Below, in pieces: positions 14,351 through 16,539 of a stretch of DNA of 64,000 nt. A program made the position numbers and the translations under genes. This DNA is from Litorihabitans aurantiacus (lineage in GTDB: Bacteria; Actinomycetota; Actinomycetes; Actinomycetales; Beutenbergiaceae), in NCBI RefSeq assembly GCF_030161595.1, contig NZ_BSUM01000001.1, forward strand, positions 2,294,001-2,358,000. Direction: 5' to 3'. The notes under the pieces are model-generated. The model saw only the letters and a list, made by a program, of their open reading frames with translations. It was not told the DNA's origin and made no database searches. Within the stretch, counting starts at the first letter, position 1; each line of letters opens with the position of its first letter.

Positions 14351-15903
14351 TCAGTCTCGCAGAGTCGCGAGGAGCGCGCCCAGACTCCCGCCCACCGCAC
14401 CGGCGACGTCGCCCGCGACGACGGGGCCGCCCCTGCCGCCCCTCCCCGCCCGCCGCGCGGCCCACCCGTGCAGGAGCGCGGCGGCCGCGGCCAGGGGGGT
14501 CGCGAGCGCCGGCTGCGCGACGACGTCGTCGGACCGGCCCGCGAGGGCGGCGCCCAGGACCCCGGCGAGCACGTCGCCCGCACCCGCCGTCGCGAGCCAG
14601 TCCGTGCTCCCGTCCTGCGAGTGCACGGGCGTCCCGGGTCCCGCCACGAGCGTCACCGATCCCTTGAGCAGCACGGTCGCCCCCGTGAGGTCGACGGCGC
14701 GGCGCAGGTGGTGCGCCGGGCGCGCCTCGACCTCGCCGCGCTCGACCTGGTCGCCGCGCGCGGACAGGAGACGGGCCAGCTCACCCGCGTGGGGCGTCAG
14801 CACGATCTGCGCCCCCACGCGCTCGGGCAGCACGTCGAGCGCCCCGGCGTCGACGACGGCGGGCAGCCCGTCCGCGATCGCGCGCGCCAGGGTCTCGCGC
14901 GCCTCGGCCAGCCGCTCCTCGTCGTCGACCCCGACTCCGGGTCCGATCACCCACGCCTGCACGCGACCGGACCCGGCGACCACCTCGGGGTGCCGCGCGA
15001 GCACGGCGTGCGCCACCGGGTCCGGCCCCGGGTAGCGCACCATCCCGACCAGCGGCGCCGCCGCCGACGTCGCGAGCACAGCCGCCCCGGGGTAGCGGAC
15101 CGATCCCGCCAGCACGCCGAGCACGCCGCGCGAGTACTTGTGGTCGTGCGGGCCGGGGACGCGCCAGAGCGCGGCGGCGTCGCGGGGCGCGAGTCGGACG
15201 ACGGTAGGGGCGACTGCCGCGAGGTCCAGGCCCAGGTCGACGACCTCGACCCGTCCAGCCAGCAGCGCGGCCGGGGGAGCAGCAGGCCCGGCTTCGCGGT
15301 GCCCGTGGTGAGGGTGGCGTCGGCGGCCAGGACGGGGCCGTGGACCTCGCCGTCGTCGACACCGGCGCCGCTGGGCACGTCGACGGCGACGACGTGGGGA
15401 CGCGTCCCGCCCGCCGCGGTGCGCACCTCGATCGCCTCGATCAGGGCGACGACGGCGGTGCGCGCCCCGCCCCGCAGCGGACCGTGGGCGCCGATGCCGG
15501 TCACGCCGTCGAGCACGACGTCGGCCGCGGCGGCTCGCGCGGCCCAATCCGACCCGGGGTCGGCGTCGGCGTCGGCTTCGGGCGGCAGGGTGAGAGGGGT
15601 GATGCCGGCACGCCGCGCCGCGACCGCTGCGCCCTCGTGCACCCGGGATCCGACCAGCAACGCCGTGACCTCGACACCCCGCCCGGCGAGCTCGGCGGCG
15701 GACAGCAGCGCGTCCGCGCCGTTGTCCCCGCTCCCGACCAGCGCCACCACCCGGGCCCCGGCGACCCTCCCCCGCTCCTGCCGCAGGTGCCGGGCGACGG
15801 CGGTGCTCAGCGCTCGTACGGCCGTGGCCATGAGCGGACGCCCGGCGGCGAGCAGGGGCGCCTCGGCGGCGGTGACGTCGGTGGAGCGGTGAGCGGTCAG
15901 CAC
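14351..15903 (-). CDS. nnr: Bifunctional NAD(P)H-hydrate epimerase / ADP-dependent dehydratase, frame broken near 15275
   Basis: Repairs hydrated NAD(P)H. The N-terminal epimerase (YjeF_N) domain shows ARVVALVGSGDNGADALLSA and VLDGVTGIGAHGPLRG. The C-terminal dehydratase (carbohydrate-kinase-like) domain shows HKYSRGVLGVLAGS, ADGLPAVVDAGALDVL, VLTPHAGELARLL and the catalytic ATAGAGDVLAG. The two domains are in different frames. Adding one base to the G5 run at 15273-15277 reads GLLLPPAALLAGRVEVVDLG across the joint, for 517 residues. GTG at 15903 was chosen because the epimerase begins there. The frame stays open upstream through a 21-bp repeat array that I treat as non-coding. Confidence 0.88.
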
Positions 15904-15930: not shown

Positions 15931-16157
15931 GGTCGGGCGGTCGGGCCGCGTCCTCGGGCGGTCCGGCCTACCCGTCGGGCGGTCCGACGTCGCCGTCGGG
16001 CGGTCTGAACGCGAGCCCCGACCACGCCTCCACGCATCACCGCAGGTCACAGCGGTGCCACCCTGGGGCGGCCGTCGGTGAGACCACCCGACGGGTCGGT
16101 CGGACCGCCCGAAGGGCCCGCCAGACCGCCCGAAGGGCTCGCCAGACCGCCCGACGG
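15931..16157. repeat. Two inverted four-copy arrays of a 21-bp unit in the acpS-nnr interval
   Basis: CGGGCGGTC occurs at 15934, 15955, 15976 and 15997, exactly 21 bp apart. Its complement GACCGCCCG occurs at 16103, 16124 and 16145, with the variant GACCACCCG at 16082, again exactly 21 bp apart. About 76 bp of ordinary sequence lies between the arrays. Inner and outer parts pair; for example CCGTCGGGCGGTCTG (15993-16007) is the exact complement of 16143-16157. The arrays fill most of the 270-bp interval between acpS (ends 16174) and the nnr start (15903). They could be a protein-binding array (two helical turns per unit), a cruciform or mRNA hairpin, or a REP-like element. Confidence 0.85.
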
Positions 16158-16173
16158 TCCCACGCACCGACCG

Positions 16174-16539
16174 TCAGCGATCGCCGCCCGTCCGCTCGGC
16201 GATCGCGAAGGCGGAGGCGATCCCGGCGTCGTGCGACAGCGAGAGGTGCCAGCGGTCGACGCCGAGCTCCTGCGCGCGTGCCAGCACCGTCCCCGTGATC
16301 TGCACGACGGGTGCCGCCCCCGGCACCCGGGCCACGCTCGCGTCGTGCCACCGCATCCCCGCGGGCGCGCCGAGCGCCTTGGCGATGGCCTCCTTCGCGG
16401 CGAACCGCGCCGCGAGCGAGGCGGGCGCCAGGTCGCGCTCGACCGGCGTGAACAGGCGCTCCGCCAGCCGCGGCGTGCGCTCGAGCGTCGCGAGGAACCG
16501 GGCGACGTCGACGACGTCGATCCCCACCCCGACGATCAC
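16174..16539 (-). CDS. acpS: Holo-[acyl-carrier-protein] synthase
   Basis: 121 residues. Transfers the 4'-phosphopantetheine arm of CoA to acyl carrier protein. The magnesium-binding [12 protein letters not shown] at the N-terminus and [15 protein letters not shown] in the middle are the AcpS signatures, and [18 protein letters not shown] closes the fold. ATG at 16539 lies 7 bp after the glmS stop, so the two are co-transcribed. Confidence 0.95.

Follow-up and report, generated by a model that had tools for sequence, protein, structure and literature searches.

Between the acpS and nnr genes of Litorihabitans aurantiacus stand two short arrays of a repeated unit that face one another, raising the question as to whether they are the arms of an element acting at the DNA level, the stem of a transcript, the coding repeat of a protein, or simply mobile or drifting sequence. 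The window, by which we mean the whole stretch of 64,000 nucleotides analysed, contains nine exact copies of the 9-mer CGGGCGGTC, seven of them in these arrays. Exact units on the plus strand start at 15934, 15955, 15976 and 15997, and exact complementary units on the minus strand at 16103, 16124 and 16145; the inverted copy at 16082 reads CGGGTGGTC and departs from CGGGCGGTC by one mismatch. The left units thus span 15934-16005 and the complementary units 16082-16153, with a step of exactly 21 bp in each arm and 76 bp between the arms. A preliminary description had given these steps and this gap correctly; its four complementary copies are three exact ones and one near match. It had missed a conserved central site, at 16035-16058 between the arms, and the arms are mirror images about an axis at 16043.5, with sites at distances of 43.5, 64.5, 85.5 and 106.5 bp to either side:

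15933..15941, plus strand: left arm site 4 (TCGGGCGGT), centre at -106.5 from the axis
15954..15962, plus strand: left arm site 3, centre at -85.5
15975..15983, plus strand: left arm site 2, centre at -64.5
15996..16004, plus strand: left arm site 1, centre at -43.5
16035..16058, plus strand: central site of the first type (CATCACCGCAGGTCACAGCGGTGC, one mismatch to CATCGCYGCAGGTCASRG), axis at 16043.5
16083..16091, minus strand: right arm site 1 (one mismatch), centre at +43.5
16104..16112, minus strand: right arm site 2, centre at +64.5
16125..16133, minus strand: right arm site 3, centre at +85.5
16146..16154, minus strand: right arm site 4, centre at +106.5
16174..16539, minus strand: acpS (holo-ACP synthase), flanking gene (PF01648, 50.9 bits, cut-off 25)
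14351..15903, minus strand: nnr (NAD(P)HX epimerase/dehydratase), the other flank (PF03853 and PF01256; start placed from relatives)

No terminator-like or promoter-like site was found at this element, and an Rfam scan gave no match in the gap, its sole match in the window being a tRNA elsewhere. The nnr gene itself consists of two reading frames that meet near 15285, with YjeF_N in one and Carb_kinase in the other, and looks frame-shifted through either assembly error or decay.

The arrangement is not peculiar to this gap. A search of the genome for the unit, as the preliminary description had proposed, yields 16 matches to CGGGCGGTC-N12-CGGGCGGTC against none for the backward pattern, and it is whole arrays, rather than single copies lacking array structure, that are dispersed; searched singly in a 12-base form, the unit gives 35 matches (control 3), some of them lone copies. 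Altogether the source genome (3.85 Mb in five contigs) carries about 45 elements of the same design, a count that comes from pattern and profile searches, read in part, of an assembly about 95% complete, and that is made up of 37 elements with one type of centre and nine with a second, with 539092 and 1145004 as further candidates. Around the first centre the arms are of type A (TCGGGCGGT), B2 (CTCGCT-N3-AGCGGC), B (CTCGCNNACGACGG) or C (CCGTCGTGAGGT), and relatives have other arm sequences. The B2 site is palindromic and operator-like, and occurs at 78 places as compared with none for the reversed pattern. The two centres carry the same arms, several arm types share one centre, and an arm contains from one to many sites. 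As judged by sequence comparison, the arm sequences are lineage-specific and the centres are common to several genera. A three-unit type A array is present in no related genome of a named collection from which near relatives may be left out; the 15 stretches matching there all belong, by record title, to other phyla or classes.

What the loci have in common between their arms is the first centre, CATCGCYGCAGGTCASRG followed by a weaker tail. A 16-base form of it, allowing two mismatches, is found at 20 places in the source genome against three for a backward control; exact matches are present in 19 of 59 genomes (the source included), and a search of 296 genomes of the class for an 18-base form found it in 23, the control giving 0 in both cases. 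We examined the mirror symmetry in 24 elements, selected by eye in five genomes that represent four genera. Each axis up to 30 bp away was scored for how well the left flank complements the right. The highest-scoring sum offset, which is double the shift of the axis, deviates in all 24 by no more than 2 bp from 0 modulo half the 21-bp period, with the point between CATCGCYGC and AGGTCASRG of the first centre as reference. Because these elements had been chosen by eye, a sequence profile was built from their centres and used to search the source genome, where it matches 71 places at a cut-off of E <= 10. Arms that are mirrored by a shuffle test (p <= 0.025) accompany 26 of the 30 best places, and 10 of the 14 among these 30 that lie outside the profile, with offsets of 0, -1, -20, -21 or 10; this denominator includes L324, L326 and L342, known earlier as armless, which with L335 make up the four armless places (L324 is beside the RNase P RNA and L335 beside an integrase gene). 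Beyond this genome most first-type centres stand without mirrored arms. We tested 124 first-centre loci, drawn from relatives, from the class and from viral contigs, with a floor of p 0.024; 12 are mirrored at p < 0.03 (offsets 0 to -2 or 9 to 10) and 112 lack mirrored arms. Eleven of the 12 are from the source genome's family, three of them from the source genome itself and several also belonging to the set picked by eye, and the other is from Gordonia phage Daredevil (L185). Of the eight family loci outside the source genome, two, L078 and L085, look like a single duplicated one.

The distances between sites and axis fall into discrete classes. The innermost site of an arm stands about 36, 45 or 55 bp from the axis, positions that differ by one helical turn, and later sites follow every 20-21 bp; across genomes and centres the distances cluster near 36, 45-47 and 55-57. 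Type A sites stand at 42.5-44.5 (or 53.5) + 21n, mostly at 43.5, 64.5, 85.5, 106.5 and onward; in three of the eight elements one side begins at 53.5, and there are two departures of a single base. First B2 sites are at 44.5-46.5 (or 55.5-56.5), with 45.5 and 65.5 the usual positions, in a census that took in sites 40-76 bp from a centre with at most five mismatches (27 rows, one with a mis-set axis); C sites are at 43-45 and 64-66. The inner spacing of the 37 first-centre elements (8 A, 26 B2 and 3 C) is 87-91 bp in 28 and 96-102 bp in nine, with none at 92-95 bp. A Rayleigh (circular) test does not single out 10.5 bp, R being 0.55-0.64 for periods from 10 to 13 bp; it is the discrete distance classes, including the third class and those of other genomes, that carry the helical argument.

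Four B2-armed places without the first centre share a palindrome, GGCGTGTC-N6-GACACGCC, which constitutes the second centre. With at most one mismatch it occurs at 13 sites in the source genome, four in G006, five in G007 and four in G011, and in 17 of 59 genomes overall; the backward control has a single site in G007 and is absent from the source genome, G006 and G011; 10 of the 59 genomes contain it once or twice. Mirrored arms at p <= 0.03 are present at 18 of 24 sites examined (9 of 13 in the source genome, all four in G006, all four in G011, and one of three in G007, where three of the five sites were included). The nine two-armed elements of the source genome have their first sites 34-36 bp away on one side and 45-47 bp on the other, giving inner spacings of 79-83 bp; loose matches within 16 bp, which overlap the centre, are omitted from these distances. 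In G011 the sites are at exactly 47.0 bp on both sides in four of four elements, in G006 the distances are 47/47, 47/37, 36/47 and 36/47, and in G007 one element has 34.5/44.5 and the other is of a looser pattern. First-centre elements in these and other genomes conform to the same classes, with 57/57 and 47/57 in G011, 47/57 in G006 and 45/45 twice in the congener G001; G007 has one at 56/76 and another that the typed motif does not resolve. A search of viral contigs for the second centre returned 24 stretches against five for the control. The proposal in the preliminary description that the cores lie on one face of the DNA, in a mirrored design suited to a looped complex, is supported in its geometry, which recurs in the roughly 45 elements of the source genome and is found also in a congener and three other genera.

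The anatomy of a typical element emerges from 20 B2 elements aligned on the axis, with the threshold for conservation set at 99.9% of the null. Columns above this threshold number 34 of 38 in one arm, 24 of 36 in the other and 17 of 18 in the centre, on which the elements had been selected; the spacers are nearly unconserved (6 of 26 and 3 of 26 columns), and outside the arms none of 44 columns on either side (0 of 88 in total) is conserved. These elements have sharp ends, CCCTCGCT...AGCGAGGG, with terminal inverted repeats. Spacer identities of 0.37 and 0.39 are slightly in excess of the shuffled values of 0.32 and 0.33, such that distant copying is conceivable. Target-site duplications of 5-9 bp or 2 bp were not found, and for 3 and 4 bp the observed value was reached by 1 and 2 of 60 permutations, uncorrected. 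According to crude gene calls, which contain errors (the acpS-nnr element is called convergent, yet both genes are on the minus strand), 19 of 36 elements lie between co-directional, 11 between convergent and two between divergent genes, as compared with 179, 55 and 48 of 282 background pairs; the remaining four lie inside gene calls, for which we assume wrong starts.

Several neighbouring structures deserve mention in their own right. Three elements are clustered within about 500 bp at 3512350, 3512562 and 3512808 (L294), and a similar cluster lies at 538880-539401 (L281). Two B2 elements flank a gene for a 331-residue protein with similarity to DUF559/MTES_1575 endonucleases (L385, G000:C1:2784448-2785687; gene L385:4138-5133), but a link with this family was rejected, as the seven other matches in the genome adjoin none of the listed elements; one of these (457154) is above the family cut-off, and one is about 1 kb from a weak, armless match to a centre. 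Direct arrays of 21-bp period and GTACCTCGCGG type (L298, 1645801-1645905; L287, 2053341-2053509), whose units drift along the array, adjoin second-centre and first-centre elements. At L296 (G000:C1:870943-871331) an array of 22-bp period has two inverted arms around a palindrome, GGCAAGGTGGTT-N9-AACCACCTTGCC, with similar units at 3217081 and 822878; we do not count it as the same design, since its arms are not mirrored about the axis of the palindrome.

Comparison with relatives shows that the occupied gaps differ between genomes. The acpS-nnr gap lacks the element in both congeners, consisting of one base in G002 and about 70 bp in G001. In a survey of 27 acpS loci including the source, the stretch after acpS was viewed for 21, and by eye no such arrays follow acpS in the 20 relatives, in some of which the next gene is not nnr. 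A second gap, between mpa and dop (proteasomal ATPase and Pup ligase by Pfam on G001), holds in the source genome an A-armed element and a C-armed place (1145004, p = 0.04). It is plain in G001 and by eye contains arrays of other sequence in G002 and G007; those upstream of dop are tandem, with a period of about 31 bp in G002 (L438) and about 20-21 bp in G007 (L440). From these other arrays in the same gap it seems that such arrays have been acquired there repeatedly. The source dop, at G000:C1:1145522, stops early in frame (154 aa).

How, then, are the repeats to be explained? The preliminary description raised the possibility that they encode an N-terminal extension of the epimerase, and the minus frame is indeed open from 16167, as it had stated. 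In both congeners, however, nnr follows acpS either immediately or after about 70 bp and starts at a position corresponding to 15903 of the window, and the gap between them is empty, so that the idea of a coding repeat fails, and we give it almost no credence. It had also suggested an mRNA hairpin or cruciform, and the RNA can fold strongly (z -7.2), as is expected of any inverted repeat; the rarity of elements between divergent genes (2 of 36 elements, as compared with 48 of the 282 background pairs, from the crude calls) likewise agrees with a long transcript hairpin serving as terminator, mRNA stabiliser or attenuator. Such a stem should leave compensatory base changes between the arms, and these were not found: in 47 mirrored pairs of B2 sites the free triplets match at 1.57 of three positions against 1.53 when shuffled (41% of shuffles reach the observed value), and the type A linkers of mirrored units match at 5.37 of 11 positions against 4.81 for all opposite-arm pairs (P = 0.12). 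Mirrored sites without base-by-base co-variation beyond the site consensus argue against either an RNA stem or a cruciform, the helical-turn distance classes are needless for a stem-loop, and neither a terminator-like site nor an Rfam match is present at the acpS-nnr copy. An RNA element is accordingly improbable, and this part of the earlier interpretation is weakened even though the capacity to fold stands. Functionless drift, by replication slippage and inverted duplication, finds some encouragement in neighbouring arrays that resemble drifting tandem repeats (2053341-2053509), but it does not account for the constancy of the geometry about a conserved centre, seen at about 45 loci here and again in other genera, nor for sites that stay constant while linkers vary, and we regard it as very unlikely.

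Non-autonomous mobile DNA, either MITE-like or consisting of docking sites for a recombinase, has more to commend it: the specificity of a transposase or recombinase shifting by lineage would produce changing arms, and the first centre would be the recombinase site. The acpS-nnr and mpa-dop elements are absent from congeners (with the qualification that the G002 mpa-dop gap has another array), the B2 elements have sharp ends with unconserved surroundings, as well as the slight excess of spacer identity, and the first centre adjoins tyrosine integrase genes (L075, L101, L335), RNase P RNA (L043, L075) and tRNA genes. As in a MITE or transposon there are terminal inverted repeats in the 20 B2 elements, but the copies are not similar over their whole length, the spacers being near random, apart from that excess, while arms and centre are conserved. 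Moreover, centres and arms interchange, arms have anything from one to many sites, target-site duplications of 5-9 bp were not found, and neither was a Y1 (RAYT) transposase, PF01797 giving no matches at E <= 1 in the source genome (about 95% complete, such that a miss is possible) in a search that found matches in 10 of 14 control genomes. While we consider mobile DNA unlikely, it is far from negligible.

The distribution of the first centre in phages bears on what might bind it. The exact 16-mer occurs in at least 120 stretches of viral contigs, some of them inside long open frames, against 15 for the backward pattern, and a 30-base consensus finds 320 phage records at E <= 10, led by Mycobacterium, Streptomyces and Gordonia phages; the same search includes 39 Escherichia and 28 Pseudomonas records, which we take for chance matches. 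The best 60 of these 320 rows include 26 matches no more than 1 kb from a record end; related phages are counted separately, and a single Gordonia group at E = 8 accounts for 12 of the 26. Daredevil and Mycobacterium phage Sheen have the match past their final annotated gene. The end of L185, which is identical to Daredevil (NC_048021.1), also carries twelve GCAGGTCA octamers in both orientations in the last approximately 1.1 kb, copies that represent the core octamer with one more base. Nine small phage proteins searched against Pfam gave one HNH, two small terminase and one endonuclease VII match, the last just under the cut-off, and five without a match; HNH labels for L117, L133, L155 and L172 are our own reading.

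In bacteria a tyrosine integrase gene abuts the first centre at all three loci put to Pfam (L075, L101 and L335), and the centre lies 20-30 bp beyond the RNase P RNA at L043 and L075 and beside tRNA genes in other genomes. In G099 (L092, L111) a tRNA-Arg 3' end is repeated together with the first centre, as at the ends of an integrated element, and in the 8.5-Mb genome G301 (L106) the first centre stands among many copies of the short repeat AGTACCCGC, with a non-significant mirror offset of 9 (p = 0.07). Since integrase genes adjoin it, the first centre may be the site of an integrase and not of a host protein, and this is the main rival for its identity. We have not chosen it as the principal reading because many phage sites are near genome ends or beside terminase genes. 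Sites for IHF occur in both the cos and attP regions of lambda. The first centre, too, is present in actinophages, often close to genome ends, and next to integrase genes, and the analogy lends appeal to a host architectural protein; the sequence of the centre differs from the IHF sites. The mycobacterial protein named IHF is reported to bind without sequence specificity (PMC10028186).

Other known systems offer partial parallels. Like REP, REPIN and BIME sequences, the elements are extragenic (by the crude gene calls), multi-copy and oppositely oriented, and like E. coli BIME-1/REP they are intergenic and dispersed, with two opposed repeats around a central sequence. Published accounts describe BIME-1 as dispersed inverted repeats around a centre that interacts with IHF (PMC2817692) and REP units as palindromes of 20-40 bp tagged with GTAG or CGTC (PMC3733652). 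Compared by eye, the units here are 9-15 bp sites at 20-21 bp steps without such a tag (units of types A, B and C do contain CGTC, though it does not flank a long stem as a tag would), and their arm-to-axis distances are fixed in helical-turn classes. We therefore do not place them in the REP/BIME family, from which they are separated by the lack of the tag and of the transposase. In sequence geometry the elements, with sites paired on either side of a central one and kept in helical register, also resemble the GalR-HU repressosome, in which, according to PMC4693257, operators flank an architectural-protein site at the apex of a 113-bp loop and the helical arrangement of the operators matters; a device of this kind is thus known to work. 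The differences are that there are about 45 copies here, with up to several arm sites per side and several arm sequences, and that no promoter-like match was found at the acpS-nnr copy.

Taking these observations together, we lean towards the view that the acpS-nnr repeats are the arms of a candidate binding platform or DNA-protein loop element, one of about 45, and the arms themselves are probably mirror-image sets of protein-binding sites held at fixed helical distances around a conserved centre. A conserved protein would bind and bend or clamp the centre, and a fast-evolving dimeric protein, or several paralogues, would bind the arm sites on one face of the helix, separated by whole helical turns; the bend would set the arms side by side, where the dimers on them could bridge, and a small DNA loop or folded hairpin would form in the gaps between genes. 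Thus the earlier interpretation is supported in part, the one-face looped design faring better than the hairpin and the coding extension falling away. As to purpose, we can only guess at local chromosome folding, insulation of supercoiling or transcription, as considered for BIMEs, or service to a mobile element.

Literature searches found no published description of such elements among the papers listed, and those made by sequence letters led to unrelated work such as primer tables and nuclear-receptor studies. We tentatively propose, with rather less confidence than in the loop element itself, that they represent an undescribed class of modular nucleoprotein element in one actinobacterial family, with interchangeable centres, one of them shared with actinophages, and fast-evolving, lineage-specific arrays of dimer sites at helical-turn distances, through which dozens of intergenic positions would fold into the same small loop. 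The specificity of the arms shifts between congeners while the geometry is constant, as would result if they co-evolve with a DNA-binding protein. The sharing of a centre suggests a sequence-specific factor common to actinobacterial hosts and their phages, in contrast to mycobacterial IHF, for which PMC10028186 reports no sequence specificity, and the elements could be used as bait for both the centre and arm proteins. If this proposal is correct, an actinobacterial family has its own analogue of the BIME, the rules of which (a constant centre, exchangeable arms and helical-turn distances) are legible from sequence.
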